NCBI GenBank assembly: GCA_016744135.1
Contig: JADGEX010000001.1
Coordinates: forward strand, 1,189,029 to 1,253,028
Length of the DNA: 64,000 nucleotides
Direction of reading: 5' to 3'
Source of the DNA: Pseudodesulfovibrio sp.
GTDB lineage: Bacteria > Desulfobacterota > Desulfovibrionia > Desulfovibrionales > Desulfovibrionaceae
Below are positions 1 through 19,769 of the stretch, in pieces; the first letter of the stretch is position 1; each line of letters opens with the position of its first letter. The notes beneath the pieces are model-generated. The model was given only the letters and a program-made list of their open reading frames with translations. It did no database searches and was not told the origin of the DNA. The position numbers and the translations under genes were made by a program.

Positions 1-1
1 C

Positions 2-3000: not shown

Positions 3001-6000
3001 CAACACCTTCCTCGGCATGTTCGGCGAAGGCGAAGGAACAGCCAAGACCTTTGCGATCGACCACGACGCAGATACCGTCACCATCGAATTCGACATGGCG
3101 GAACATGGCTTCTGGGATCCCAACTTCCTGAATAACAACGACACCGATCACTTCATTATTGAAGTCGGTGGGCAAACCGTTGAAATTCCTCTCAGCGCGT
3201 TTGTATCCGAAACATTCACTGGTGGCTCTGCAGGCACGAGCGTCAACCTCACGACATACCCAGGTCTCGGCGGCGGCTTCCTCCATCACGTTTCAATCAC
3301 GCTGCCCGCACCGGACAGCGGCGATCTGACTCTGGACCTCTCTGCAAACATCGAGACAGAATGGTTCACCCTCTTCGGGCATCAGATCTTCCCCACAGAT
3401 GTTGAAGCATTTGCCATCGACAACGTATCTGTAGCCTCTTATGACGAAGGCGGCCTGCCGATGTTCTCGGTTATCGAAAACACTGGCGGAGACTCCAACG
3501 TTGCTCAACTTGGCTCCTCGGATGTTGAAGGCCATGCCGTCCATTACCAAATCACCGGCATCACGGATGCCAATGGCGATCCCGCTGATCCGAGCCTGTT
3601 TTCCTTCGACGGAAACACATTGGTAGCCCATGGTGGCGCAACTGGCTTCGATTATGAAACCAACTCATCCTACACTGTCACGGTCGTCCCCGTGGACGAA
3701 CAAGGCGGCGTGGGCCAGGATGTCGACATCACTGTCAACATCGGCAACCTGAACGAACCGCCTACCGGCGAAGACTTCACCATGACCGTCGGTTTGGAAG
3801 GCGGCCCGGTACCCTTCCTCGGCGCTGATGGCAGCGAAGGTGGGACTGGCGAGGATGCAGACCATGTATCCGATCCGGAAGACCCGTCCTACACTGGTCA
3901 GGAACTGGATGTCATGATCACCGATCTGCCCGACAACGGCCAGCTCGTTTACGGCCCGGGTCAGACTCCGGTCACCCAAGCTGACGTTGATAATGGCACA
4001 CAGTTCGACCTGAATCAGTTGAGTTATGTCCCCGACGGAGAAGCCATCGACGGCGTCCTCCTCGGCTCCCGCGTTGCTGGCGATGCAACTCTGGGTCAAT
4101 GGGGCGTTGAACAGCCTGATGGCTCTTACGATCTGGTCATCGACGGTGTAACCGTCACCACCAGCGTGACACGCAACGGCGACAATGCAGAACTCACTCA
4201 GTACCATGAAGGTGCAAACCACATCGGATTCGGTATTGCTGATGAACAAGGCCAGGGTCTTAACGGCACGACCGACGACGTTCTGACCGTCTCCTTCGAT
4301 GGCGCAGCGGTTTCCTACGCGGAAATCGGCTTTGACGGCTTGGGTGGTTACTTCGATCCAGACAGCCCACAAGAAGCATTTGCCACCTGGACCGCATACG
4401 ATGCGGCAGGCAACGTGGTTGCCAGCGGCGAAGTCAATAACGGCATGATCAACACCGTGCCGACGGATGGCGGCGGAAGCGGCGACCTGTTCCAATACAT
4501 GGTTATGGATGAAAGTCTGCTCGGCGAAGGTAACTCCTTCACCAGACTCGAATTCAGCACTGTGGAACATGGCAGCGAAGACGGCGCCAACTGGGAACTC
4601 CGGTACATTGATGCCGAATTCACTAACACTGATACATTCGACTACATTCCCATCGACTCCGGGCTTCCCGGAACCGACGGCGAACTGGTTGATCCTGCGG
4701 GTTCCTCAACGGTCACCGTCAACATCCTGCCCGACGCTCCTGTGAATCAGGATCCGACAGCGGTTGCTGACAGCGAATCCGTATACGAACCCGACACCGG
4801 TACCTTTGCAGGTATGGCGGAAGTCTCCGCAAACGTGCTCGACAACGACCTCGACCCGGACAACACGCCTGGCGAAATGTCCCTCACCCAGGTTGAATTC
4901 GACGGCACTACATACGACTTCACTGGCGCAGACCCGATCACCATCACAGGTGTTCATGGTACTTTGGAAATCGGTTCCAACGGTGAATACACCTATACAG
5001 CGACTGACGAGACACTGCCCGAGGGCGTGAACCCGACTGAAACCTTCAAGTACACCATGACCGATGGCGACACCGTGGACAACGACCCTGTTGCCCAGTC
5101 CGCCAACTTGGTCATTCAGGTTAATGGCCTCAACGACGCTCCTATCGCTCTCGACGATGCATATGATGCATATGAAGTGAATGACGGCGCAATCGTAACC
5201 CTCGGCAACGTGGGTAATGCTTCCGGCGGCGGCGATGACTATGATCCTGACACTGGCGAAACCGTACCCGGCACGACTCCCGATGCCATCGTTTCCTTTA
5301 GCCCTGTCGGCGATCTCCCGGCTGGCGTTTCCCTGCTGCCGAACGGCGATGTCCAGTTCGATCAGGACAACCCGGCTTACGATCACCTCGGCGTGGAAGA
5401 AACCATGGATATCACCTTCCAGTACACTGCCAATGACGGCGACACGGATTCCGTTCCCGCGACCGTCACCATCACGGTGAACGGTGCAAACGATGCTCCG
5501 GTCCTCGACCTGTCTGCAGGCACAGTGACCTTTGAAGGCGAAGAAGCCGGTTACAACAACATGCTCGGTATCTACACGATGGCCGATGGCAACCCGGTGA
5601 ACCCGGAAATCATCCTTGTCAACGTTAACGATCCGAATCTGGATATCGGCGATGTGCTCACCACCTACGGTGACGGCGCAACTCCGAACTACTTCCTGGT
5701 TTCTGTTGGCTATGGTGCAACTCCCACCGGAACTCCTGAGTTCGTATGGGATGAAGCTAATGGCGAATGGGCCATCTCCTTCGACGGCGGCACGACAACG
5801 CTCGATGCCCGCTTCGACAACATGGACCTCAACCCCAACGACCCGGAACACACCTTCGATCCTGCGGAGCTTCTGGCTGGCAGAGTCGGCGTGGACGACC
5901 AATTCCTCGAAGTTGAAGGCGCAGACGATGATGACTTCGACGATGTCCTCGCCGAAGAACACGACGGCGCAGACGGTGCCGATCACGGTCCGGTCACCTT

Positions 6001-9000
6001 TACTGAAGGCGGCGACGCTGTCGGTGTTACCGGTGCGGTGGACATCTCGGATATTGATTCCGACAACATGTCCAAGGTCGAAATCAGCTTCGAAGAGCAG
6101 CCCGGCGATGTTCTGAGCATCACCCTGCCAAGTTGGGCCTCCTTTGGCCCGGACGATGGCGATGCCGGAACCATGACGATTATTGGGGACGCCCCCAAGG
6201 CCGACTGGGAAGCCCTGCTCCAGACTCTGACCTTCGAAAACACCTCGCAAGATCCGTTAGGTGATGACCTTGATACGGAAAATACTATCGAGAACCTCCG
6301 TGACCTCTCAGTCACTGTCTACGACGATCAGGGTGCAGCCAGTAACACAGCTCACGCGTTCGTCCAGGTCATCCCGGTCAACGATCCGCCTGTCGCGGTT
6401 GACGATTTGGGTTCGGCCTCCGGCCATTACGTCCCCGGCGAAGAGACTCCCGACGGACCTCTGTACACATTCTCCGCAAATGTCGGAAACGTGTACCAGT
6501 GGGCAACCGGTGGCATCACACATACGGGTATCAAGACAGATGGTGAAGGCAACAGCATTGCCGACAAGGCAGTCGATAACAGCGGTCCAGACGAAGCGCT
6601 GACCATCAACTTCGCCCAAAGCCAAACAGCTGTCGAATTCGACATCCTGACGCATGGCAGTAGCGATCCCCTGTTTGAGGCTACAAGTGGCAGCACGACG
6701 CTGACAACTGACACGTCTCAGCCAACATACCTCATCGTGACACCCGGCACTGGCAACAGTTATGCAGTAACAACAAACGACGGCACTCCCTTCGACAGTC
6801 TGACACTGTCTCCCGAAGGTGAATCTGATCGCTTCTCGCTCAAGGGCGGTATTGAACTCACACCGGCTGACACCAGCTCGGGTGATATGCCCATCGTGGA
6901 AGGCAATGTGCTTGCCAACGATTGGGATTATGAAGATGTAGACTACCCCGAAGGCGACAACCTTGCCACACCGGAACTGGAAGGTTCAACAGAACTGACT
7001 GTCACCGGTATCGCAACAGGCGATCAGGACAACCTCCCGGATTACACCGGTGTTGACTTCACGCCTGATTCCGGAACCTTCGATACTGGCGATGACGGCG
7101 AAGGCGCCTTCATCCAAGGCACTTACGGTGTTCTGGAAATCGGTGCGAACGGCGAGTACACTTACACGCCGAATCCCGACCAGACCGGTGAGATCTCCGA
7201 AACCTTCACCTATCAGGTCAGCGACACTGAAGGTGCAGTCGATTACGGTCTGCTCAATGTCAGCGTGACTATTGAGAACGCAGCCCCCGTGGCTGACGAC
7301 GACATGCAGAATGTCCCGGAAGACATTCCGACGACTCTTGATGTCCTCGCAAACGACTCTGACCCCGATGGAGATCCGCTCTCCATTGATTCCTTTGACG
7401 CAGTGGCCACGGCCAATGCGGACGGAACCGGCGGCACTGTAGGTACCGTTACCGAGGTTGGTGGAGAATTGGTCTTCACTCCTGAAGACGGCTACAACGG
7501 ACCTGCATACTTCAACTACTCCGTTACTGACGGCGGGTTGACAGACTCTGCTCAGGTTACCTTAAACGTCACGGCAACCAACGACGATCCAGTTGCGGTC
7601 GACGACCTATACGATGACCAACCAGGTATTGAAAATGACTTCAACGTCGTGACCGAAGGTGGCACAAACTTCGAGTCCAACCCGGTCAACTACCTGTTGA
7701 TCGTGGATACCTCGGGGTCCATGTCCACCAACAATCGCATAGGTGAAGCCAAGGCTGCCCTCAACGAAATGCTGGAAACACTGCAGGAACAGATTAACAC
7801 CAGCGGCGGCTCGGTCAAGGTCGGACTTATCGACTTCGACGGAAACACAGTCACTCGTACTTACACGTTAACCGACAACCCGGCGACAACCGAATACCAA
7901 GATGCACGCAACTTTGTTGCGACATTCGACGCCCAAGGCTCAACCGACTACTTTGATGCATTAAGTGCAGCCAACACTTGGGTAGCTACCGAAGCCGGAA
8001 GTATCGAAACACAGGTCATCTTCATGTCCGACGGCTTGCCTAATAACACCAGCAACTGGCAGGGCCAAATGAACACCCTGCACTCCAACACCAATGTCAT
8101 TGGCGTTGGCATCGAAATGGGTTCCTCCAACATGCAGTACATCAACCAGATCAACGAGAACGGTAACGGTATCAACCTCGACGATCCGAGCGATCTGAAC
8201 GGCCTGTTGCAGACCATCCTGACCGAAACCAGTACAGAAGGTACAACCGCTACCGGCAACGTGCTCGACAACGACACCGACGCAGATGCAGGCGACACCC
8301 TGAGTGTTGTCTCTGTGGCTCTCGGCGAAGAATCCAGCCACGGAGCCTTTACGGCTCTCTCGGCTGTCGGCACTGATGCTGACGACGCTGACACAGCGGT
8401 CATGGTAGGCACTTACGGAACTCTGACCATCAATAGTGATGGCACATACGAATACACCCCGGATCAGCCTGCGGCCGACGCACTGTCTACCGGAGATACA
8501 GAAACTGAAGCCTTCACCTATCAGATGACTGATGGGCAAGGCGGCTATGATGAAGCCACTGTGAGCTTCCTGATCAACGGTGCAGACGACGCCCCTGTGG
8601 CAGTCAATGATGTCTTCGCCGGAATGGAACTCACTCCCGGCTACTGGCAGACCTCAACCAACACGACGACGATTAATGACGCTGACTTCACAGGTTCCAT
8701 CTCTGGTGGAGATTACAATGGTGTTGGTTTCGACATTAGCGCACGGGGTGAGGCGTTTATAGGTTGGGGCAATGCGAACGTTGTTAGGGTCGGCGGAGAT
8801 GACCTTGGTGTTAACAATCCCAACCAATGGAGGGGAGATAACAGCAACAACATCGATGGAAAGTGGGATGAGAATATGACCATCTCCTTCGATGCACCTC
8901 AGACCTCAGTAACAATTACGCTCGGCGGTACTGGAGACGGAGATACACCTTCATTCTCTGTTAGCGGCGGCAGCGGCTCATACTCAAATGGAGTATTCAC

Positions 9001-9907
9001 CGCCACCGGCAACATAACGAGCATCACAATCGGCGCTGACCACAAGAAGGACTCCTTCTATCTGGAATCCTTAAGTGCCAGCAGGACTGTCACAAGCACC
9101 GCCTGGATTGCGGCGTACATGACACCCAACGGCATAATTGGTGATGTGCTGCAGAATGACTTCGATGCCGAAGACGCGGATTATGTTGAAACCTCTGGTG
9201 CCAACACAGACCTCGTCGTACTCGGCGCAACAGGAACAGGTGGTTATGTCTCACTGGACGACACCGGTGATGGCTCTGCTACCAGCGGCACTATCCAAGG
9301 CGAATACGGAAGCCTGACTCTGAACGAAGATGGCACCTTCCAGTACAACGTGGATCCGGCTTTGGTGAACAACATCAACGGCCCCGGCGTGGAAACCTTT
9401 GAGTATCAGATTGCTGATACCGATGGCATGACCAGCACCGCAACACTGGAATTCCCCATCACAGTAGCAGGCGACAACTCGGTCATCGTTGGAACATCCG
9501 GCGACGACACCCTGTACGATGATACTGGAGATAACGTCATCTTTGGCCTTGAAGGCAGTGATGACATTCACCTCAGCGGCGGTGACGACACAGTCACTCT
9601 GGGCGAGGGTGCGGACACGATCACGATTGATCCCGCATACATCGGCGGAAACGTTGAAGTTACGGACTTCGACATCAACGCTGGTGACCAACTCGACCTA
9701 AATGCTCTTGGCAGCGGCAATCTGGCGATCACATCCGATTCCGGCAGCACCGATCTCATTCTGACTGTTTCGGGCAGCAGTGATCTGGTGATCACGCTCA
9801 ACGGGGTTGTCTCAAGCCATGACGGCATCACTGCAAATGTCGACCTTGCAACCGACAACGTGAACGACATAATCCAACAGATTATCGATTCACCTGACAA
9901 CTTCTAA
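2..9907 (+). CDS. Giant type I secreted VCBS/VWA adhesin (5'-partial)
   Basis: The frame is open from base 2, so the true start lies left of the window; 3301 residues are visible. The first ~60 residues resemble the end of a nidogen-like domain (RYDDVSW, then Gly-rich turns). About nine VCBS/cadherin-type units follow, each with a G-x-YG-x-L strand, a DG-x-Y/F-x-Y strand and an NDAPVA-type end. A VWA domain at residues ~2560-2745 carries the metal-site motif DTSGSM (2569-2574). The C-terminus has a short degenerate RTX-like stretch (~3162-3207) and an acidic/hydrophobic tail typical of type I secretion signals. The protein is very acidic, rich in Asp/Thr/Gly and nearly free of Cys, as expected for a Ca-stabilised surface adhesin. 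Downstream are a small related protein and TolC; opposite are the ABC, HlyD and LapG-like genes. The role in biofilm attachment is inferred from the family. Confidence 0.93.
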   Translation, partial: NGDFGIEYRYDDVSWTRGQPGDGEPYPTGGWTAGDGSHFGLVMGSGTGDFINVEDTSNVGQSGVYAWEVRDGQVSGELHDYTVAVGASGNVLLNDSDVDDNDMVNEPGEETDLFVMGLYSAYPSDNIDDQLDYAMPTVEDDLGGTIEYPQVSPAQNSFTVQGHYGELTVNADGSYVYTLDDDNENSDLEGLNYDRPGTDSFTYATMDDSGAMDYANLTFTVNGANDAPVAYDDANSIIEWGAGLTDMNDFLAARFSEGQEPIEQTDTIHGNVIDGDAFGGVADTDVDDTEIFVSRIYTKGEEEQDIPDSGDGQPTLTASGLVITNEADVYNDGDQEVTIDGQYGTLTIRADGSYDYVLNNENPNVDALNVEDSLVETFYYTARNSYDDGVESNEAELNITIYGNNDNPEVSITRPARFDGEFVEDGAHAVGSGATDILGGHGIQISDVDNVGAELTVTVTQDVRHEGDILSFDVLRANGNPHPRIQTIDGDDFDGITVFQFKGVLVTIDNNTGTIFMEAATGRTPGFNQFEQAMKRLTFEIDSEDDTPNTADRGFTVTVRDDNSDPVDPAEIDGQGVYSVDGVASTSFTLHVIAANDTPVAEDDGIYQVTELSDVTDGGCHLFDGPLGVLLADLLGVPTSELPENVAEGNVLANDWDPDQFAYGDGGAPDTEDNPNDLTDLRVIGLKYDGEPDQGEVAMDTAMAPTPGDGFSPVGDTLADGVFVQGLYGRLYMDDEGNFRYVADTEAANALAEGHSATETFTYMITDGDASLSTDPNAYNDPDTDTATVTFQIHGSNDQATIIVEPGADQGTVTEVEWVESPVDPNDPSTWASGTVAPDDFTDSNEAVLDEFGNIVVTPALETLETGGQLFVDDPDHHPHDPATFTNLAGTPVQIDLEDTFQPDTDVTSKGGTFTINELGEWTYEIDNTLPVVQTMGDGESFTETFQVTSYDGTDSHTITVTVEGSNDAPVITSIVAPVEDFEDGVTTGWDSNETGTMFGNTFLGMFGEGEGTAKTFAIDHDADTVTIEFDMAEHGFWDPNFLNNNDTDHFIIEVGGQTVEIPLSAFVSETFTGGSAGTSVNLTTYPGLGGGFLHHVSITLPAPDSGDLTLDLSANIETEWFTLFGHQIFPTDVEAFAIDNVSVASYDEGGLPMFSVIENTGGDSNVAQLGSSDVEGHAVHYQITGITDANGDPADPSLFSFDGNTLVAHGGATGFDYETNSSYTVTVVPVDEQGGVGQDVDITVNIGNLNEPPTGEDFTMTVGLEGGPVPFLGADGSEGGTGEDADHVSDPEDPSYTGQELDVMITDLPDNGQLVYGPGQTPVTQADVDNGTQFDLNQLSYVPDGEAIDGVLLGSRVAGDATLGQWGVEQPDGSYDLVIDGVTVTTSVTRNGDNAELTQYHEGANHIGFGIADEQGQGLNGTTDDVLTVSFDGAAVSYAEIGFDGLGGYFDPDSPQEAFATWTAYDAAGNVVASGEVNNGMINTVPTDGGGSGDLFQYMVMDESLLGEGNSFTRLEFSTVEHGSEDGANWELRYIDAEFTNTDTFDYIPIDSGLPGTDGELVDPAGSSTVTVNILPDAPVNQDPTAVADSESVYEPDTGTFAGMAEVSANVLDNDLDPDNTPGEMSLTQVEFDGTTYDFTGADPITITGVHGTLEIGSNGEYTYTATDETLPEGVNPTETFKYTMTDGDTVDNDPVAQSANLVIQVNGLNDAPIALDDAYDAYEVNDGAIVTLGNVGNASGGGDDYDPDTGETVPGTTPDAIVSFSPVGDLPAGVSLLPNGDVQFDQDNPAYDHLGVEETMDITFQYTANDGDTDSVPATVTITVNGANDAPVLDLSAGTVTFEGEEAGYNNMLGIYTMADGNPVNPEIILVNVNDPNLDIGDVLTTYGDGATPNYFLVSVGYGATPTGTPEFVWDEANGEWAISFDGGTTTLDARFDNMDLNPNDPEHTFDPAELLAGRVGVDDQFLEVEGADDDDFDDVLAEEHDGADGADHGPVTFTEGGDAVGVTGAVDISDIDSDNMSKVEISFEEQPGDVLSITLPSWASFGPDDGDAGTMTIIGDAPKADWEALLQTLTFENTSQDPLGDDLDTENTIENLRDLSVTVYDDQGAASNTAHAFVQVIPVNDPPVAVDDLGSASGHYVPGEETPDGPLYTFSANVGNVYQWATGGITHTGIKTDGEGNSIADKAVDNSGPDEALTINFAQSQTAVEFDILTHGSSDPLFEATSGSTTLTTDTSQPTYLIVTPGTGNSYAVTTNDGTPFDSLTLSPEGESDRFSLKGGIELTPADTSSGDMPIVEGNVLANDWDYEDVDYPEGDNLATPELEGSTELTVTGIATGDQDNLPDYTGVDFTPDSGTFDTGDDGEGAFIQGTYGVLEIGANGEYTYTPNPDQTGEISETFTYQVSDTEGAVDYGLLNVSVTIENAAPVADDDMQNVPEDIPTTLDVLANDSDPDGDPLSIDSFDAVATANADGTGGTVGTVTEVGGELVFTPEDGYNGPAYFNYSVTDGGLTDSAQVTLNVTATNDDPVAVDDLYDDQPGIENDFNVVTEGGTNFESNPVNYLLIVDTSGSMSTNNRIGEAKAALNEMLETLQEQINTSGGSVKVGLIDFDGNTVTRTYTLTDNPATTEYQDARNFVATFDAQGSTDYFDALSAANTWVATEAGSIETQVIFMSDGLPNNTSNWQGQMNTLHSNTNVIGVGIEMGSSNMQYINQINENGNGINLDDPSDLNGLLQTILTETSTEGTTATGNVLDNDTDADAGDTLSVVSVALGEESSHGAFTALSAVGTDADDADTAVMVGTYGTLTINSDGTYEYTPDQPAADALSTGDTETEAFTYQMTDGQGGYDEATVSFLINGADDAPVAVNDVFAGMELTPGYWQTSTNTTTINDADFTGSISGGDYNGVGFDISARGEAFIGWGNANVVRVGGDDLGVNNPNQWRGDNSNNIDGKWDENMTISFDAPQTSVTITLGGTGDGDTPSFSVSGGSGSYSNGVFTATGNITSITIGADHKKDSFYLESLSASRTVTSTAWIAAYMTPNGIIGDVLQNDFDAEDADYVETSGANTDLVVLGATGTGGYVSLDDTGDGSATSGTIQGEYGSLTLNEDGTFQYNVDPALVNNINGPGVETFEYQIADTDGMTSTATLEFPITVAGDNSVIVGTSGDDTLYDDTGDNVIFGLEGSDDIHLSGGDDTVTLGEGADTITIDPAYIGGNVEVTDFDINAGDQLDLNALGSGNLAITSDSGSTDLILTVSGSSDLVITLNGVVSSHDGITANVDLATDNVNDIIQQIIDSPDNF

Positions 9908-9992: not shown

Positions 9993-10778
9993 ATGACTGA
10001 CGATACGAATATGAACGACACGACGATGCTTGGCACGTATTCCCTTGAGGGAAACGTGCCTGTTGAGCCGGAAATTGTACTTGCCAACTGTATGGATACG
10101 GCCATGCTAGGCCAACTGGTATCTGTTTTTCAAGGCAATCCAGACATCCGGTTCTTCCTCATTCACGACGCACCGGAAAATGCCGTCGACCTGACAGGAG
10201 ATCTCCATTTTCTCAAAGATGGCGGAAGCTGGGTGTTGGCTAACAACAACTCCCTGCTTGGTGTACTTTTTGACAATGCGGACTTTAATCCGAATGGAAC
10301 AGAAGACACATTCTCTCTCTCTCAAAATATCGACGGCAGTTGGGCTGTGATGATGGATAACACACCCTCACTGGCAGACTTACCGCCGAGCGAACAGCTG
10401 CTCGTTGACTTGGCAGAAGATAATCTTTTTGTAGACGATAACGTTGCCGGAACAAGTACAGATCATGACAGTTTCTTCATTGATCCCTCTGTTTTGGAGC
10501 ACGGAGAAAACGAAATCATTGTCTCCAACTTCACTGTTGGTAGCGACACGCTGGAACTGCCTGAAGGCATGTCTGTCAAGGATGTAATCGTGGACACGGA
10601 ACACGACCTTACGGAAGTAATCATCGGACAAAACGATACAGGCCACGATGATATCGTAGTTAAGCTACTCGGTGTTTCCCAGCCTGATCTGCCCACGCAT
10701 GATTACGGCATTGACACCGATACTTCGACAGACGACCTTATCAATCACCTGATAAGTTCCGGTATGAACGTTGATTAA
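9993..10778 (+). CDS. Small acidic adhesin-like protein, probable type I secretion substrate
   Basis: This 261-residue acidic protein has a strong AAGGAG ribosome site six bases before its ATG and no Sec signal. Residues ~10-110 align by eye with a segment of the giant adhesin at bases ~5540-5915. Shared features are MLG-x-Y at the start, PV-x-PEI-x-L-x-N, an FL pair, and FDN-x-D-x-NPN followed by TF near the end. The segment recalls DUF4114-type domains, but I cannot confirm that. The C-terminal ~90 residues mimic the adhesin tail: a beta segment (VSNFTVGSDTLEL against VTDFDINAGDQLDL), an Asp-rich stretch, then a helix with paired Ile/Leu. It is probably exported by the same type I system. 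It could be a matrix accessory protein, a co-adhesin or a competitor for secretion. The function is unknown. Confidence 0.8.
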   Translation: MTDDTNMNDTTMLGTYSLEGNVPVEPEIVLANCMDTAMLGQLVSVFQGNPDIRFFLIHDAPENAVDLTGDLHFLKDGGSWVLANNNSLLGVLFDNADFNPNGTEDTFSLSQNIDGSWAVMMDNTPSLADLPPSEQLLVDLAEDNLFVDDNVAGTSTDHDSFFIDPSVLEHGENEIIVSNFTVGSDTLELPEGMSVKDVIVDTEHDLTEVIIGQNDTGHDDIVVKLLGVSQPDLPTHDYGIDTDTSTDDLINHLISSGMNVD

Positions 10779-11066: not shown

Positions 11067-11108
11067 TCTACCAGTAAGTAGCTTAAATTCAATCACATGG
11101 GGTTTATC

Positions 11109-12446
11109 ATGAAAAAGATCGTTCTCGCGACTCTCCTTTTTTCCCTCCTTCTTTCCGTGCCGGCTTTCGCCCAAGCGGATGGAACGATGACACTGAAAGA
11201 CAGTGTCGTTGCGGCTGTCAAACAGCACCCGAAAATCAAGGCCATGTTGTATAACAGAGACGCCGTATCCAAGGCGCAACTGTCTGCACTGGGCCGTTTC
11301 TTCCCGTCTCTGGACTTGCAAGCTGAAGCTGGTTGGCAGGAATACAGCAGTGCTGTTACCCGTGCCACCAATGTGGACAGACATACCCGCACTCCCACAG
11401 ACATGACCGCAACTGTTACTCAGCCGATCTTTGACGGTTTTGATCGTTGGAGCGACTACAAGCGTGAAGGCGCCCGCATGACTTCCGCTGAAGGCCGTTT
11501 GGTTGATAATGTGGAAACCGTTGCTCTGGACGCCATCCGCGCCCATGTCGACGTGGTCCGCATCCGTAAGCTTGTTGCTCTGGCCGGTGAAAACATCACC
11601 GCTCACCAACAGTTGCTTGATTCTATCACCGAACGTGTTGAAGGTGGAGCCGGTAACAAGGCCGATGAAATGCAGGCTAAGGGCCGTGTTGCCCGCGCCG
11701 AGACCACTCTCGTCACCTACATCGGTGACCTTCGCTCTTCAGAGGCAGAATACGCCCGTACAGTTGGCGTCACTCCCAAAGAACTCGGCGATCCCGAATA
11801 CAACCCCGAATATATCCCCGGCACAGCTGAACAGATTCTCGATGTTACTCTGGACAACAACCCCAAGATCGCAGTGTTCAAGGCTGAGATCGAAGTGGCT
11901 GAACGTACAGTTGGTGTCCTCGAATCCACCATGTACCCAGAAATTGATGTTTACTACGCACACCGCAACACGGATGACCTCGACGGTTCGGACTCTTGGG
12001 TTCAGGACGACAAGGCAATGCTCCGTGCGAACTGGAATCTCTTCAACGGCCTCAGCGATTACAACGATGTTCGCACCGCAACCGCCCGCGTCCGTGAAGC
12101 CCAGTCCAATTTGCAAGACACTACCGATGACTTGATCCGTCAGGTTGCATCAGCTTGGGCCGAATACGAATCCAGCATCGGTCAGATCGAAAAGTACCAA
12201 GAAGCTCTCCAGTACAGCTTGGAGTCCTTGGACATGTATCTCATGCAATTCAATGTCGGTCAGCGCTCACTCTTGGACGTGCTTGATGCGACCAACGAAG
12301 TCTTCAGCAACAAGGTGCAGCTTGAAACTGCTACCAGCAACCGCAACTTCACCCTGTACAAATTCCTGGCCCTCGAAGGCCAGCTCATGAAGACTCTGGA
12401 AGTAGCTTCCAACACCTACGAAGAACTTCCTGCTACTGAACAGTAA
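11109..12446 (+). CDS. TolC-family outer membrane factor of the type I system
   Basis: The 445-residue protein starts with a Lys-Lys n-region, a Leu-rich core and an AFA-Q cleavage site, a clear Sec signal. Two long TolC-like helical hairpin repeats follow, rich in Ala/Glu/Gln/Asn, with typical late segments (RANWNLFNGLSD; NVGQRSLLDVLDA). The length is normal for TolC/LapE/AggA types. I chose the second in-frame ATG because a GGGG ribosome site lies before it and the signal peptide starts cleanly; the first ATG is at 11097. It should form the outer membrane channel for the ABC/HlyD pair encoded at 15.8-19.7 kb and export the adhesins. Confidence 0.93.
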   Translation: MKKIVLATLLFSLLLSVPAFAQADGTMTLKDSVVAAVKQHPKIKAMLYNRDAVSKAQLSALGRFFPSLDLQAEAGWQEYSSAVTRATNVDRHTRTPTDMTATVTQPIFDGFDRWSDYKREGARMTSAEGRLVDNVETVALDAIRAHVDVVRIRKLVALAGENITAHQQLLDSITERVEGGAGNKADEMQAKGRVARAETTLVTYIGDLRSSEAEYARTVGVTPKELGDPEYNPEYIPGTAEQILDVTLDNNPKIAVFKAEIEVAERTVGVLESTMYPEIDVYYAHRNTDDLDGSDSWVQDDKAMLRANWNLFNGLSDYNDVRTATARVREAQSNLQDTTDDLIRQVASAWAEYESSIGQIEKYQEALQYSLESLDMYLMQFNVGQRSLLDVLDATNEVFSNKVQLETATSNRNFTLYKFLALEGQLMKTLEVASNTYEELPATEQ

Positions 12447-12908: not shown

Positions 12909-15011
12909 CTAGTCCCTAGGGGCTAACAACTTTTCTGCAACAGGAGTCTTGACGACTTCGGCAAGAGCCTGAACCACAGAGCTGTCAAACTTCGTCGACT
13001 CGCTGGAGAGGATAGCCAAAGCCTGCTCCGGCTCTTTCGCTCCACGGTAAGACCTTGGTCGGATCATGGCGCAGAATACGTTCAACACAGACAGAATACG
13101 AGCAAGCATAATGGTTTCATCGCCCATAATTTTCTTAGGATAGCCGGAGCCATCCATACGCTCGTTCATCTGATAAATAGCCAGAAGCACACCTTCGTCG
13201 ATGTCGATATCTTTGAGAATACGATAGGCGTGTTCGACATGCTCTTCCATAGTCACCATTTCCTCGTCGGTAAGCTTGCCCGGCTTGGTCAAAATCTCAT
13301 TAGGTACGAACATCTTACCTATCTGCGACAGATTGGCCGCAGTCTCGATTTCAGCAACGTCCATTTCCGACATGTGCATATACTTAGCTACTTCCACAGA
13401 CAACCCTGCCAAGAGCTTGGTATGCCCACCGAGGTACGGATCAGCTGCCTCAATAGTGCTTCCCAACGCTTCCATGGCACTCTTGATCAGACGCTTATTC
13501 TGCTCTTGCGCTGCCACGAATTCGGTGATGTCTCGATAAACTTCGACCAAACCAGCACACGACCCGCTGCTATCACAATAGGGAGATTTTGATATCTGAA
13601 ACTGATGTCGTTGAGAACGCAGGAAAATCGGCTCGTTGATTGTCTCCTTACGGTTTTCCCGCATGGCAATCTGATCAATGGACTCCAACCGCTTGGCGGT
13701 ATCAAAACCAAATACAGCAGCGGCATCCATACCAATCAATTCATCACGAGTTCGCCCAACAGCAGTGGCAAAGGCATCGTTAACATACGTATACCGTCCC
13801 ACACCGTCCTTGAGTGTAATAAACTCGTCAATATTGGCATTAATAGAATCAATGAACCGCTTTTGGTCATCTATCTGTGTTGCCAAAGCCTTAAATTCCT
13901 TGGCTATACGTTGACTCTGCACGCCAGTAAGAATCCACCATGCCAACCCTGCCACAAGAAAGGCAGTCAGAATACCCAACCCGGCCACGATGTACACGGT
14001 CCGTGTAAAATCATGAATCGGAGTGACTGCATCATCATAATCAATTTCCTGAATCAACCACCACTCAGGGCCAGGAACCCGCACACCCAGTGAATAAACT
14101 TTCTGTTCACTGTCTCCAATGCTCATCCTTGCCTCAAAGGGGATATTACCCTTCGGTCCAAAGTCGATCTGCGTCGAGACTTCCTCAAATCCTTCGGAAC
14201 TCCATGGAGTGGCTTCCTTGTATCTATCACCGTCTTTTTGCATCAAACGCGTCTTCTGCCCCTTTGCAGCCAGAGCAGAGTTCGACAACAATTCGGTAAT
14301 CTTGCCGGAAACAAGTCGTGTCATCATCAGGACACCAACGGCTCCGTCCTGCGGTCCCTCATCGGTCCCACCCACGGCATCCGGCGGATAAATAGGAACA
14401 TACACGTCCATTTCCACACCCCGGACCGTCTTCCTGAGCGGAGAATATTGTGGACTATTTTCAAAGACAGCAGCCTTAGCTGATGCAGTCTGCAGGTCAT
14501 CCATCGGTGGTAAATGACCATCAGTGGCGATATAAGCTTCACCACTCTTGCTCAAAATACGTGCATTGACGAATCCGGCATAAGTGGAAAACTCCCTGAG
14601 CATATTTTCCATCATGGGCAACTGTTCAGCCAAAACAGCGCCCTCACTTTCAACATCTTCTTCGGAGTGAATTGTTCCGAAAAGAGCTGAAAGATCCCCG
14701 TCAAAATCTTCAATCTCAGCGGCATAGAGCCGGAAAAGATCGGATTTGATCAGCCGGTCACCATGGTGGGATAAATTGCCAAGAAATGTGCCGACAACCT
14801 CCCCCCTGACATGGGTCAAAATTTCGAACCGTTTTTGCAGGTTCTCCAGTACTCCAACTTCCTTGTCTTTGACCGCTTTGTTGGCAAGAAGCAGGATGCC
14901 TACTGAAATGACCAGAACAAAAGCCAGGACAACGCCGATCTTGACGCCTTGCCCGGCTCCCCCAATGGACTTGGGGACCTCTGACGCGTTTTGTGCATTG
15001 TGTTCAGCCAT
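12909..15011 (-). CDS. Membrane Cache-PAS protein with a degenerate HD-GYP domain
   Basis: A 700-residue protein. An N-terminal membrane helix (~24-45) precedes a ~270-residue periplasmic Cache-like domain. A second helix (~325-350), a PAS domain (~375-490) and a C-terminal HD-GYP-like domain (~527-690) follow. The HD-GYP fold is plain (KPGKLTDEE, DGSGYPKKI, ARILSVL), but the metal-binding residues are lost. The HD of LHDIGK is Ser-Gln (562-563), HHER is Gln-Met-Asn-Glu (614-617) and DVFDA is Asn-Val-Phe-Cys-Ala. It should be unable to hydrolyse cyclic di-GMP and may act as a receptor or scaffold. I chose the ATG after GGAGAATTGACT. It is the last gene of the ABC-HlyD-LapG operon, 52 bases after the protease gene. 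That is where Pseudomonas has LapD, so a LapD-like job is inferred. Confidence 0.85.
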   Translation of the reverse strand: MAEHNAQNASEVPKSIGGAGQGVKIGVVLAFVLVISVGILLLANKAVKDKEVGVLENLQKRFEILTHVRGEVVGTFLGNLSHHGDRLIKSDLFRLYAAEIEDFDGDLSALFGTIHSEEDVESEGAVLAEQLPMMENMLREFSTYAGFVNARILSKSGEAYIATDGHLPPMDDLQTASAKAAVFENSPQYSPLRKTVRGVEMDVYVPIYPPDAVGGTDEGPQDGAVGVLMMTRLVSGKITELLSNSALAAKGQKTRLMQKDGDRYKEATPWSSEGFEEVSTQIDFGPKGNIPFEARMSIGDSEQKVYSLGVRVPGPEWWLIQEIDYDDAVTPIHDFTRTVYIVAGLGILTAFLVAGLAWWILTGVQSQRIAKEFKALATQIDDQKRFIDSINANIDEFITLKDGVGRYTYVNDAFATAVGRTRDELIGMDAAAVFGFDTAKRLESIDQIAMRENRKETINEPIFLRSQRHQFQISKSPYCDSSGSCAGLVEVYRDITEFVAAQEQNKRLIKSAMEALGSTIEAADPYLGGHTKLLAGLSVEVAKYMHMSEMDVAEIETAANLSQIGKMFVPNEILTKPGKLTDEEMVTMEEHVEHAYRILKDIDIDEGVLLAIYQMNERMDGSGYPKKIMGDETIMLARILSVLNVFCAMIRPRSYRGAKEPEQALAILSSESTKFDSSVVQALAEVVKTPVAEKLLAPRD

Positions 15012-15063
15012 AGTCAATTCTCCATCTGGTTTATGGTGTCGCCCTCCCGCGGGAAGGCGTGCC

Positions 15064-15765
15064 TTACTTTTTCGTCTTCGTATATGTGGACTTCTTCTTG
15101 GGAGCCACGTGCATCCACCTGAACTTCTCGTTCACGGAGTATTGCGGAATATAATGCTTATATTTCGTATGTGACAAAACCATAACGGTCTGATTGTCGA
15201 GAATAAAAATATCGTTATCGGTGTATACCGCCAAGACCGCATGCCCTATGCCACGAATCGCATCCTTAACCGCCACTATACGCATTTGATCCTGCGAAAA
15301 GCCAACTTCTTGAAGGGCATAAAACTTGGCAATCGAATAGTCTTCGCAATCACCTGATTTTCTCAGGAATTCCCATGGGGTCGCCCAATATTCACTGACC
15401 CCCCAATTAGCCTTGTCCAAACGATACGGCCATTTATTGAAAAACTTGGTCACAGCCTTAAGCTTTTCCTTATTAGGTTTACCCTTGATCTGTGACTTGA
15501 GCGCGTACCATCCTGATTTTGATGGATGATTAGCCGTCTTGGAATCTTGGAAATATCCTTTCCACGCCTGCATTTTGGTCACCACACGGGACCACTTGGG
15601 CAATTTCTGAATTTTCCCCTTGAATTCCATGGTTCCCAGCAACCGGGGCTGCTTTTGCTTTTTGGCCGCTGCCGACGCAGTGGGGGCCATTCCAAGGACT
15701 ACAACGATGAAGACCGCACACAGTGCGGTCATAGTCATCGTATGTCTCCCCAGAATAAAACGCAT
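15064..15765 (-). CDS. LapG-like periplasmic transglutaminase-type cysteine protease
   Basis: A 233-residue protein with an N-terminal hydrophobic signal ending ASA-A, placing it in the periplasm. It matches the bacterial transglutaminase-like cysteine proteinase family. The catalytic Cys140 is in SGDCEDYS, His175 in GIGHAVLAV and Asp190 in ILDNQ, with the usual order and spacing. LapG of Pseudomonas, from this family, cuts the N-terminus of the giant adhesin LapA and releases it. This gene sits 7 bases after hlyD and before the degenerate HD-GYP gene. An alternative ATG at 15738 has a better ribosome site (GGGGAGA) but loses the charged start of the signal peptide. The cleavage target, the adhesin N-terminus, is outside the window. 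Confidence 0.9.
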   Translation of the reverse strand: MRFILGRHTMTMTALCAVFIVVVLGMAPTASAAAKKQKQPRLLGTMEFKGKIQKLPKWSRVVTKMQAWKGYFQDSKTANHPSKSGWYALKSQIKGKPNKEKLKAVTKFFNKWPYRLDKANWGVSEYWATPWEFLRKSGDCEDYSIAKFYALQEVGFSQDQMRIVAVKDAIRGIGHAVLAVYTDNDIFILDNQTVMVLSHTKYKHYIPQYSVNEKFRWMHVAPKKKSTYTKTKK

Positions 15766-15772
15766 GAGGCAA

Positions 15773-17101
15773 TCAACGCTCCCTAAGTGCGTTCTGCTTT
15801 GCCTTAAGAATCGGTTTCAGGAGATAATCCAGCACCGATTTTTTACCGGTAAGGACGTCCACTCCAGCGGTCATGCCCGGAATAATGGGCAATCTTTGTC
15901 CCCGATACACAATGGCATTCTGCTTGGTACGCACTTTAACAAGATAATGATTTTCACCTTTCTCATCTTCAATGGTATCCGCACTGATATTTTCGACAGT
16001 TCCCTCAAGTCCTCCATAAATAGAAAAATCGTAAGCCGTAATCTTGACCTGAGCTTTCTGACCCGGATGCAAAAACGCGATATCTGAAGGCTTGATTTCC
16101 GCCTCAACCAACAAAGTATCGTCCAAAGGCACTACTTCCATAATGGATTCACCAGGACGAATAACACCACCGAGCGTATTAGACATGATGTGCTTAACGA
16201 TACCTCTAACCGGTGAACGAACATCTGTCCGAGTAACCCGGTCACCACCAGAACTCAGATTCTCAGTTATGGAATTCAATTCAAGCCGCCGTTCGTTAAT
16301 TTCTTCCAACGCCTGGCTCCGAAACTCTGCCTTGCGTTGCTCAACCCTACCAAGCGCCTCCTTGGCAGCCCGCTTGACGCGAGGAATACCCAAGGCCAAA
16401 GCCTCGACATCACCCCGAAGTTCGACAACGCGCTGTTCCAAAGCCAAATAATCCAACTCCGAATGAATCTGTTTTTCCACAAGAGGCTTGGCGATATTAC
16501 GCTGTTTGAGAGCGACTTCCAAGCTACGCTGAAGTTGCCGTTTACGACCAGCCATTTCACTCACTTCCTGCTGTTTCTGTTCATACTGATCTTGCAGAAG
16601 GCTCAATTCAATCTTCAACTGCTGTTGCTGTGCCCTGGAAATTCTGAGTTGATCATTCACCAACTGCGGAGCTTCTTTTTTCAATTCATCATCAAAAACA
16701 GGGTCCCTGTCTTCGACCTCGGCAACCAATCGGGCGATAGCCGCCCGATGCTCCATTGCCTTGGCAAATGCATCGCGATAATAACTGGCAGCCTGCTCGT
16801 TATGCAGGCGGCAAAGTATGTCCCCTTTGTCGACGGTCTGTCCTTCATGCACATACAATTCACTCAGAATACCACCTTCGAGGTTCTGAATTTCCTGAAT
16901 ACGCTGAGACGGAATAACCCGACCAAAACCGCGAGTGACTTCATCGAGAACTGCCAATTTAGCCCAGACGACAAAAATAATGATCAACAACAATATGGAC
17001 GTGGACATGATGTAGGCGAACCGACGACCTTTACCATACATGGCCTGGTCCACCTCACTCATGAACAGGAGTACTTCTCTTTCATCTTTATGCTTGCTCA
17101 T
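15773..17101 (-). CDS. HlyD-family periplasmic adaptor of the type I system
   Basis: The 442-residue protein has a cytoplasmic N-terminus, one membrane helix (~24-45), a split lipoyl/barrel-sandwich region and a long coiled coil rich in Gln/Glu/Leu (~130-290). The C-terminal beta-barrel carries VRSPVRGIVK and PGMTAGVDVLTGKKSVLDYLL, the typical HlyD/LapC ending. I moved the start 26 codons inward to an ATG preceded by GAGG, only 7 bases after the ABC gene stop; the longer frame would overlap that gene. It links the inner membrane ABC transporter to the TolC-like channel. Confidence 0.93.
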   Translation of the reverse strand: MSKHKDEREVLLFMSEVDQAMYGKGRRFAYIMSTSILLLIIIFVVWAKLAVLDEVTRGFGRVIPSQRIQEIQNLEGGILSELYVHEGQTVDKGDILCRLHNEQAASYYRDAFAKAMEHRAAIARLVAEVEDRDPVFDDELKKEAPQLVNDQLRISRAQQQQLKIELSLLQDQYEQKQQEVSEMAGRKRQLQRSLEVALKQRNIAKPLVEKQIHSELDYLALEQRVVELRGDVEALALGIPRVKRAAKEALGRVEQRKAEFRSQALEEINERRLELNSITENLSSGGDRVTRTDVRSPVRGIVKHIMSNTLGGVIRPGESIMEVVPLDDTLLVEAEIKPSDIAFLHPGQKAQVKITAYDFSIYGGLEGTVENISADTIEDEKGENHYLVKVRTKQNAIVYRGQRLPIIPGMTAGVDVLTGKKSVLDYLLKPILKAKQNALRER

Positions 17102-17108
17102 GACGACC

Positions 17109-19688
17109 TCAGAGGGAAACCTTGATTTTACCGGACTTAAGTCCATCCAATACGGCCTGTTTCGGCCCGTCCACAACAATTTTTCCCCGGTCCATGATGA
17201 CTAACCGATCAATGAGATCAAGCATAGAATGACGGTGGGTAATTACGATAAGCGTCTTGTCTTCGACAAACGATCTGAGTCGCTCCTTGAGTCTGAATTC
17301 CGACTGATTATCCATGTTGCTCGACGGCTCATCCATAATCAGGATTTCCGGGTCGGGCAAAACGGCGCGGGCAATGGTTACAGCCTGTCGTTGACCGCCG
17401 GACAGGGATGTTCCCCGCTCTCCGACCATCATACCAAACCCGGCTGGGTGATCCCGAACAAAATCATTCACCCCAGAAATTTCAGCCGCGTAATTAATGG
17501 ACTGATCATCTGCCTCAGGCAGACCGAAAGCAATGTTATCTTTCAACGTCCCATAAAAAAGCAAACTATCCTGAGAGATATACCCCACTTTCCTGCGAAG
17601 GTCGGCCACGTCCATCTGACGCAAATCAATATCACCAACCTGTACAGACCCTTCAACGGGTTGATACAGCCCGACGCACAATTTACCAAGGGTAGTTTTT
17701 CCAGCTCCGGTCCGACCGACGATACCGACCTTTTCACCCGGAGAAAGCTTGATATTGACATCATGCAAAACAGCCTTGTCCGTCCCCGGATAGCTGAATG
17801 AAACGCCAGTCATGGTTATGGAAGGTTCAATGGTACCATAATGGAACGTTTCCTTTTCATCGGGACGTTCGCTGGGCATTTCCATAAGCATATCCAAAGC
17901 GTTCAGCGCCATCCTGGATTGCTGGAAACGGGAAAGCAAACCGGCAACCGCACTCAACGGTGCCATGGCCCGACCCGACAGGATATTGCAGGCGATCAAC
18001 CCACCCACAGTCAGCTCTCCTTTTGAAATAAGGAACACGCCGATAATTACCACTGCCACCGAAACCATCTGGGTAATAAAAACCGAGAAGGAAATGGAAA
18101 TGTTGGCCATGATCTTAGCGCGGCTGTTGGACATGGCAGACATACCCACCACGCTCTCCCACCGAGCCTGCATACGACCTTCGGCCATACTCGTCTTGAT
18201 GGTTTCAAGCCCCTGTACAATTTCAAACAGAAGCGCATGTTTCTGTGTTGATTCCTTATAATGACTCTCAATGATACGCTGGAAAGGAATCTGAAGGAAC
18301 AGCCCCACCAAAATGACCACCGGAACCGCTATGAAAATCGGATAAGCGATTGGACCGCCGATGAAGTGAATGACAAAAATAAACAAAAACAGAAATGGCA
18401 GGTCGATAAGCGCAACCAACGATGACGACCCAAAAAACTCACGCAATGACTCAAACTCACGGATATTATTGGCCACGGCTCCTGCGGATTCCGGCATATG
18501 ATCAAGGCGGGCGGACATGAGATGGTTCATAATCCGACTGCCAATAATGACATCCGCATTGCGACCAGCCACATCAACGAAATAACTGCGCAAATTCTTC
18601 AGCAAGAAATCAAAGATGTAAGCAATGGCAATACCTATGGCCAATGCCCACAATGTTTCCATTGCATTGTTCGGAATAACACGGTCATAGACGTTCATCA
18701 CAAAAAGCGGCGAGGCTACAATGATGATATTCGTCATGATGGACGCGCCAACAACGTGTTTATAGATAGGCCAGAAACGACCAAGGACACCCCAGAACCA
18801 TCGCTTGGTCTTGAGAAGTTTCAACCCCGACACACGCTTATCAAGTTTGGAATTACGATGACAGAATATGGCATAACCAGTGTATTCTTCTTCCAATTTC
18901 TCAAGCGGCATTTCGGTCTCGGCCATACCGTGGCCAGGAATCACGACACGAGCGACCTTGTCCGTCGTCTCCACAAGCACGCAGGCATTGCCACCACGAA
19001 GAAGCAGGATACACGGAAGAATCAGTCGAGTAATAGTCCGCAACTTCTCACGATAAACAGTCTTTGCCCGAATGCCGATGCGATCTGCGGACCGAACAAT
19101 GGACGCGGCTGTAATGACGCCTTCCTGTTGCGGGATACCAGCCTTGAGCGTGGCCGAGGAAACCGGCTTACCAAGCAATCGACTTATGATGGAAAGACAA
19201 ATTACAAGCGGCGGCTGAAAATCAATATCCTTTGGCGACAATCTTTCATCAGTCTCGACTTTGATTGGCACCGGCTGACCAGGCATGGGCATACCACCGG
19301 GCATGGGCTGTCCGGGTTGTCCAGGCTGTCCGGGTTGACCAGGCTGCTGCGGTTGACCTGGCATAGGCTGCCCTTGCTGCTGTGGTTGTTGCGGTTGTCC
19401 GGGCTGCTGCGGTTGCTGAGGTTGTCCTCCAGACGCTTGAGCAGTTGACGTGCCCGCGGCCGCAACGGGGCTTTCCCCCTTTCCGGGAGCTGTCCCCACA
19501 GGCTTGGTATCCAATTGGGAGGGCTTGGCCGCCGGCTTGCTTTTGGCTTGCTTGCCAGTTGGAGGCACGGAACCCGATTTGGAAGATGTAGCAGAGGCAC
19601 TTCCAGCCGGCGCCGTTGGAGATGAAGCTCCATCAGTCCGTGTTGGCTTGGAACCATTCTTTAACGCTGATTTTTTATCAACAGACAT
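17109..19688 (-). CDS. Type I secretion ABC transporter with C39-like domain and long Pro/Gln-rich N-terminus
   Basis: The 859-residue fused permease/ATPase has four parts. Residues 1-155 are a low-complexity extension, first Ser/Ala/Lys/Pro-rich and then (88-141) made of Q-P and G-Q-P units. A peptidase-C39-like domain (~155-280) lacks an obvious catalytic Cys-His pair, as in HlyB/LapB transporters of RTX adhesins. Six membrane helices (~310-580) follow, then the ATPase with Walker A GRTGAGKTT, signature LSGGQRQ, Walker B ILIMDEPSSNMD and switch His in ITHRHS. I chose the inner ATG at 19688 because a consensus -35 box at 19795 would leave almost no leader for the ATG at 19751. It is the first gene of the operon ABC-HlyD-LapG-HD-GYP and should export the giant adhesin and its small relative. 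Confidence 0.93.
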   Translation of the reverse strand: MSVDKKSALKNGSKPTRTDGASSPTAPAGSASATSSKSGSVPPTGKQAKSKPAAKPSQLDTKPVGTAPGKGESPVAAAGTSTAQASGGQPQQPQQPGQPQQPQQQGQPMPGQPQQPGQPGQPGQPGQPMPGGMPMPGQPVPIKVETDERLSPKDIDFQPPLVICLSIISRLLGKPVSSATLKAGIPQQEGVITAASIVRSADRIGIRAKTVYREKLRTITRLILPCILLLRGGNACVLVETTDKVARVVIPGHGMAETEMPLEKLEEEYTGYAIFCHRNSKLDKRVSGLKLLKTKRWFWGVLGRFWPIYKHVVGASIMTNIIIVASPLFVMNVYDRVIPNNAMETLWALAIGIAIAYIFDFLLKNLRSYFVDVAGRNADVIIGSRIMNHLMSARLDHMPESAGAVANNIREFESLREFFGSSSLVALIDLPFLFLFIFVIHFIGGPIAYPIFIAVPVVILVGLFLQIPFQRIIESHYKESTQKHALLFEIVQGLETIKTSMAEGRMQARWESVVGMSAMSNSRAKIMANISISFSVFITQMVSVAVVIIGVFLISKGELTVGGLIACNILSGRAMAPLSAVAGLLSRFQQSRMALNALDMLMEMPSERPDEKETFHYGTIEPSITMTGVSFSYPGTDKAVLHDVNIKLSPGEKVGIVGRTGAGKTTLGKLCVGLYQPVEGSVQVGDIDLRQMDVADLRRKVGYISQDSLLFYGTLKDNIAFGLPEADDQSINYAAEISGVNDFVRDHPAGFGMMVGERGTSLSGGQRQAVTIARAVLPDPEILIMDEPSSNMDNQSEFRLKERLRSFVEDKTLIVITHRHSMLDLIDRLVIMDRGKIVVDGPKQAVLDGLKSGKIKVSL
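19266..19427 (-). repeat. Low-complexity Gln-Pro-Gly coding repeat
   Basis: Codons 88-141 of the ABC transporter gene consist almost only of CAG/CAA, CCN and GGN, giving tandem QPQQP and GQP units interrupted by PMPG. Such DNA is prone to slippage, so the length may vary between strains. It lies in the cytoplasmic extension before the C39-like domain. Confidence 0.85.
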
Positions 19689-19769
19689 AAGTTTCGCTTG
19701 GAATAAAGTGAAAATAAAGGGATCTCCCCTACCACTGGCAGGGTCGTACATTTCTTACAGTATAGGTCT

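Follow-up and report, generated by a model that had tools for sequence, protein, structure and literature searches.

A probable Dvh (Bfs)-type adhesin retention and release locus with a degenerate HD-GYP receptor in Pseudodesulfovibrio

The window analyzed here is a 64,000-nucleotide stretch of contig C51 from the 3.97 Mb genome of a Pseudodesulfovibrio species. It contains a minus-strand operon (19751-12909) that encodes a type I secretion ABC transporter, an HlyD-family adaptor, a LapG-type cysteine protease and an HD-GYP membrane protein, and Pfam and NCBIfam matches confirm this gene content, which had been proposed in an earlier sequence-only reading. The transporter (17109..19751) belongs to the LssB subfamily (TIGR03375, 931 bits) and carries an N-terminal C39-like domain. 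The adaptor (15773..17179) matches TIGR01843 with 395 bits. Just beyond the range 12909..19688 lie two plus-strand genes, encoding a giant adhesin and a TolC-family outer membrane channel (11097..12446, TIGR01844), the latter convergent with the operon. The adhesin gene (1..9907) begins 1,604 bases 5' of the window (L002:12397), and its product is a DvhA-like VCBS/cadherin-repeat protein of 3,836 amino acids with an N-terminal retention module, a VWA domain and RTX repeats. Between the adhesin and TolC genes, on the same strand, a 261-amino acid protein (9993..10778) matched no Pfam or NCBIfam family. Judged by eye, its C-terminal tail resembles a type I secretion signal and its N-terminal part is similar to a segment of the adhesin. 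Scans for sigma-70 promoters and terminators gave no enrichment over shuffled sequences.

The protease (15064..15765, minus strand, 233 amino acids) matches Peptidase_C93 with 75 bits and is the single match to the LapG family (PF06035) in this genome. Against the NCBIfam LapG model NF045674 it scores 93 bits, below the equivalog cut-off of 320. The Cys-His-Asp triad, read earlier as intact, is present as C140, H175 and D190, as are the calcium-site residues D139 and E141, and all five are invariant across 16 aligned sequences. Hydropathy indicates one hydrophobic segment at the N-terminus (residues 4-35).

The HD-GYP protein (12909..15011, minus strand) is 700 amino acids long from an ATG at 15011. 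An alternative TTG at 15017, six bases upstream, would give 702 residues; the ATG, 52 nt past the protease stop, is the better start. Two membrane-like segments (about 18-51 and 337-367 by hydropathy) flank a periplasmic domain, and a third hydrophobic stretch (634-654) falls within the HD-GYP domain. Pfam identifies PAS_4 and HD_5 but no Cache family in this protein. The periplasmic region does, however, align with a solved structure, 9rc2 (query residues 60-331, E 2e-47). The best match in the PDB is 9rc0 (380-700, E 9e-90), and 9rbz covers residues 496-700 (E 2e-56). All three entries are deposited as HD domain/sensory box protein. We take them to be crystals of DvhD of Desulfovibrio vulgaris, 9rc2 being its dCache domain, because their extent, residues and numbering fit the description in PMC13090378. 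Together the matches span dCache, PAS and HD-GYP domains, so the architecture first read from the letters as Cache-PAS-HD-GYP holds.

The catalytic motifs of this protein are degenerate, and an alignment reproduces the earlier motif reading (Ser-Gln, Gln-Met-Asn-Glu, NVFCA) exactly. Numbered from the TTG start, the HD pair is S564-Q565, HHER is Q616-M617-N618-E619 and DVFDA is NVFCA beginning at N646, while GYP is retained. The residues that contact the nucleotide have fared differently. In D. vulgaris numbering the protein keeps Y523, L577, Y621, M646, R650, Y652, R653 and E668, with K582 replaced by Met. Thus it appears to have lost the catalytic ligands and retained the c-di-GMP pocket, and we predict that this DvhD orthologue is a c-di-GMP receptor. 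At a bridging site described for D. vulgaris P567 is kept, K520 is Ala and R569 is Glu.

The sequence-only reading had suggested a survey of which proteins neighbor LapG, and we carried it out across the order. PF06035 matched 157 of 297 genomes. Among 80 LapG loci, chosen from the matches listed so as to cover genera, a DvhD-type HD-GYP protein adjoins the protease on the same strand in 75. The exceptions are a locus with LapD (L110), a second LapG of the same genome (L111), a lone LapG (L076) and two weak LapG matches from one genome (L077 and L078). In L076 (genome G263) the LapG-type gene lies by apparent trp genes, judged by eye, and no receptor was found adjoining it. Together with that of the window the survey yields 76 receptors. 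They are not independent observations, since many come from closely related organisms and one belongs to the same species as the window. At the HD position 75 have SQ and one has CQ; HD is kept in none, and HH is absent from all 76. The alignment does detect intact motifs, as two other HD-GYP proteins in it (L095 and L096) keep HD, HHHE and DVYDA.

These counts bear on the possibility that the HD-GYP protein is still an enzyme which happens to stand beside a protease, turning over c-di-GMP or another nucleotide through altered metal ligands. The domain remains recognizable (HD_5, 134 bits), GYP is kept in the window and the glutamate of HHE is retained in 74 of the 76 receptors. However, HD and HH are lost throughout in the very alignment where L095 and L096 keep both, and the D. 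vulgaris orthologue is reported to hydrolyze no c-di-GMP whatever ion is added (PMC13090378). We therefore consider continued turnover highly improbable and return to the reading of a receptor that would bind c-di-GMP without cleaving it.

Conservation of the pocket varies by position. R650 is present in all 76 receptors, R653 and L577 in 75 each and Y652 in 69; position 646 is Met in 66 and Leu in the other ten. Y621 (59 of 76), Y523 (52), K582 (32) and E668 (20) are less constant. At the bridging site, which is known from one structure and is perhaps no defining feature, P567 is found in 66 receptors and both K520 and R569 in none; because these two residues are absent from all 76, DvhD proteins may not generally possess the third c-di-GMP site. 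In the 16 receptors of one genus (g3) GYP and Y621 are lost too. Two of these (L065 and L071) lack the GYP region and have Asn in place of Y652, and c-di-GMP binding by them is doubtful.

Beyond the order, PF06035 matched 30 of 395 genomes of the phylum, 11 of them the present genome or its family. Our sample from outside the class covers 19 loci from 17 of the other 19 genomes, with G015 of the window's own order in addition. At the 19 loci the neighbor is of the DvhD type in five (one on the opposite strand), LapD-like, as called by similarity to the LapD of G004, in nine, and neither in five, where one locus is cut by a contig end and two are weak LapG matches. HD and HH are missing from all five DvhD-type neighbors; L265 and L270 read Cys-Asn for HD. 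A further set from named genomes starts from DvhD: in the best 80 of 165 loci, a same-strand LapG is no more than 600 bases away in 73, and the other seven have 0-138 bases of upstream sequence. These loci were found with peptide patterns of the degenerate motifs and so cannot reveal an intact HD-GYP protein, a bias from which the LapG-first sets of the order and the phylum are free. The named loci include Desulfuromonadales and Rhodospirillales (Pelagibius). Seven loci of alphaproteobacterial type keep the Asp of DVFDA (DVFCA or DVYCA) and are the least changed. One of the seven is titled Anaerolineae, with a protease nearly identical to an alphaproteobacterial one. An intact HD-GYP protein beside LapG, which might represent an ancestral stage, was looked for in the LapG-first sets and none was found. 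The survey thus adds that DvhD pairing occurs at nearly all sampled LapG loci of the order, and that no HD-GYP protein found next to LapG has kept its catalytic ligands.

A true LapD elsewhere in the genome would offer this protease another partner. We rejected that candidate, as LapD_MoxY_N (PF16448) has no match in the genome, and the earlier view that the HD-GYP protein stands in LapD's position is unharmed on this point. Within the order PF16448 matched eight of 297 genomes, two strongly (G004, E 2e-45; G015, E 9e-37) and six weakly (21-26 bits), the latter all in genus g3. Both G004 (L110/L111) and G015 (L281) hold a LapD-LapG pair whose proteases fall in the LapD-paired clade of the tree described below.

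We placed 68 LapG-type proteases on a tree, with the DvhD-paired group thinned to every third sequence (43 kept). All 11 LapD-paired proteases and two lone ones sit behind a single branch of length 2.39 with support of 100/100. On its other side are all 52 DvhD-paired proteases (43 + 7 + 2) and three lone ones. The tree is midpoint-rooted, carries a long-branch warning and includes no Pseudomonas sequence. Label changes number three for LapD and four for DvhD, because the LapD group includes lone sequences and the DvhD-paired ones carry several sub-labels. As we read the tree, protease lineage and receptor type go hand in hand, and in family f5 LapD and its protease arrived as a pair. It has been proposed that DvhD replaced a lost LapD (PMC13090378), and the separation of LapD-paired from DvhD-paired proteases into distinct lineages in this sample bears on that idea.

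The retention module was recognized by position and by likeness to relatives in the genus, as no library model matched it. In the window's adhesin the cleavage site reads ETAGD (A106-G107; L002:12706-12717, 5' of the window), and the same ETAGD occurs in a second adhesin of 3,148 amino acids (L150/L289). A third adhesin of 875 amino acids (L152) has ETAAS. None of the three fits the published di-alanine consensus [T/A/P]AAG, a departure on the side of the substrate and not of the receptor and its protease. The strict form is missing from the majority of relatives in the genus as well, with ETAAG in nine of the 40 distinct adhesin N-termini fetched; 36 of the 40 have Ala-Ala (ETAA in 35, DTAA in one) and four have ETAG, three of the latter from the window's species. 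In a sister species (G168) the first adhesin has ETAAD and the second ETAGD. Cleavage of the first two adhesins is not assured, since the scissile Ala-Ala reads Ala-Gly in both, and these Ala-Gly sites may be a new finding.

Both giant adhesins could in principle escape the protease, leaving the system to regulate only the smaller adhesin and a short module-bearing protein in this species. The ETAG sites of the two giants set against ETAAS in the 875-amino acid adhesin and ETAAG in the 213-amino acid protein described below, and the Ala-Ala kept in 36 of 40 N-termini of the genus, point in this direction. However, glycine is small and may be accepted, and ETAG is also seen in L284, from a sister species, and in L286, from a further one. 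In PMC13090378 and PMC6890996 the one change that we found reported as tested, and as resistant, is Ala-Ala to Arg-Arg. We regard such an escape as unlikely, and cleavage of the adhesins by the protease remains part of the reading that we prefer.

A search with the retention module also identified a mini-adhesin of 213 amino acids outside the window (minus strand, L151:6129-6770; G000:C51:770131-770769). It consists of a retention module, the site IETAAG, an acidic linker and an adhesin-like tail, and has no repeats. Of 36 genomes in the genus, 14 have module-bearing frames of 206-258 amino acids. In all ten loci fetched (two from the same species) an FKBP-like gene, within about 3 kb, and thiC lie nearby, and in five a gene for a 340-amino acid HD-GYP protein follows. 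In close relatives the HD-GYP gene beside the mini-adhesin (L151:4811-5833, minus strand) reads by eye Tyr-Asp for HD with HHE kept, and is perhaps another partly degenerate receptor. Between two species (L151 and L154) dN/dS of the mini-adhesin is 0.09 overall, 0.03 in the module, 0.22 in the linker and 0.06 in the last 33 residues. Within the genus the mini-adhesin keeps its gene neighborhood and evolves under purifying selection, and its conservation in part of the genus may be new.

A protein search limited by length returned 29 relatives of 180-225 amino acids, those with names being called hypothetical protein; one of the 29 (P0142) resembles a cut adhesin. ETA is invariant among them and ETAAG is found in 28, P0136 having ETAGG. 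Leaving P0142 aside, we built a profile from the final 32 residues of the remaining 28 relatives and ran it against the ends of open frames, 4,967 in number, from the fetched loci and four named controls (E up to 1), which gave 35 rows. Eighteen are mini-adhesins, with several loci duplicated. The other 17, some of them duplicates, have E values of 4e-5 to 0.76 and tails that look adhesin-like by eye, and include this genome's three adhesins (E 4e-5, 0.004 and 0.04). The tail profile did not pick up the window's 261-amino acid protein. A predicted structure, confident only over residues 11-90 or so (pLDDT about 90), shows a beta domain there, then a short helix and disorder (overall mean pLDDT 64.7, pTM 0.41). 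No solved structure was recovered with the alignment profile (best E 0.17), the 29 members had no NCBIfam match at E 0.01 and the single member tested had none in Pfam. Within a limited literature collection, searches on the retention module with LapG and on HD-GYP with LapD gave no title or abstract opening on a protein of this type.

Among the four retention-module proteins found in the genome only the mini-adhesin fits [T/A/P]AAG, and it could for that reason be the preferred substrate of the protease where the giant adhesins carry Ala-Gly. It is conceivable, if rather unlikely, that it is an extra player in the system that sets the number of adhesins on the surface, either as a protease-removable cork in the same channel or as a competitor for the protease or TolC. 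In that case it would add a new type of component.

Taken together, a Dvh (Bfs)-type adhesin retention and release system very probably explains the locus, whose protease and receptor are orthologues of DvhG and DvhD of D. vulgaris. In this system the type I secretion machinery would thread the giant adhesin through TolC, with the N-terminal retention module remaining in the periplasm as a plug. DvhG could cleave behind the module and so free the adhesin. DvhD, presumably derived from an HD-GYP phosphodiesterase by loss of the metal ligands, with the c-di-GMP pocket preserved, would change the shape of its dimer at high c-di-GMP such that the periplasmic dCache domain restrains DvhG; as c-di-GMP falls, DvhG would cut. 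The genes and their order, the loss of metal ligands, the conservation of the pocket and the near-constant pairing with the protease are observed here. For the orthologous D. vulgaris system it is in print that the receptor binds c-di-GMP, does not hydrolyze it and changes conformation, that the adhesin is cleaved, and that control depends on c-di-GMP (PMC13090378, PMC11784015). We infer that DvhD controls DvhG in this species by analogy with D. vulgaris. The contact by which the receptor would restrain the protease, expressed in the sequence-only reading as sequestering LapG, is likewise inferred, and PMC13090378 offers for it an AlphaFold 3 interface only.

The dCache domain might in addition sense an outside ligand, in which case DvhD would integrate that signal with c-di-GMP. 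Cache domains are mostly ligand-sensing (PMC13090378), and the periplasmic domain has been conserved between D. vulgaris and the species studied here. However, the structure contains no ligand density and permits no decision, and a conserved surface patch may serve recruitment of DvhG instead (PMC13090378). We regard such integration as somewhat unlikely.

In D. vulgaris the membrane protein DvhD has the architecture dCache-PAS-HD-GYP, with SQ in place of HD and Met and Asn in place of the His pair. It binds c-di-GMP with an average effective Kd of 99 nM, hydrolyzes none with any ion added and alters its dimer shape upon binding (PMC13090378, Nat Commun 2026). Control of DvhG by DvhD is described in the same paper, citing a reconstitution from 2024. 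According to PMC11784015, that reconstitution (published in PNAS) showed DVU1020, whose HD-GYP domain is inactive, to bind c-di-GMP and to modulate DVU1019, the protease that cleaves DVU1012 at 106AA107. A dead HD-GYP receptor unrelated to LapD in LapD's role, as the sequence-only reading held, is thus supported here and published for the orthologue (PMC13090378, PMC11784015). The interpretation is essentially right and not new: from sequence alone it re-found a receptor replacement worked out in the laboratory and published between 2024 and 2026. The main text of PMC13090378 does not mention Pseudodesulfovibrio, and our search found no experiment on this species.

The locus shares with the Dvh/Bfs system of Desulfovibrio (Nitratidesulfovibrio) vulgaris Hildenborough (DVU1012-1020) its gene content and the order ABC transporter, HlyD, protease and receptor (DVU1017-1020). 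Both combine type I secretion, a giant adhesin with a VWA domain, a LapG-type protease and a receptor that has a periplasmic dCache domain, a PAS domain and a dead HD-GYP domain, and both receptors have SQ for HD and Met/Asn for HH. However, the operon here is convergent with the adhesin and TolC genes, DvhG lacks the linker of about 180 residues found in D. vulgaris, the Lys and Arg of the bridging site are missing and the scissile Ala-Ala is Ala-Gly in the first two adhesins. Across the HD-GYP domain the receptor is similar in sequence to the active phosphodiesterases PmGH (PDB 4mcw/4mdz) and 3'3'-cGAMP phosphodiesterase 3 of V. cholerae (5z7c). The metal ligands HD and HH of PmGH (PMC13090378) are lost in the receptor of the window. 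With the Lap system of Pseudomonas fluorescens (LapA/B/C/D/E/G) the locus shares its logic and types of parts except for the receptor, which is LapD/MoxY-HAMP-GGDEF-EAL in LapD (PMC13090378) and dCache-PAS-HD-GYP here.
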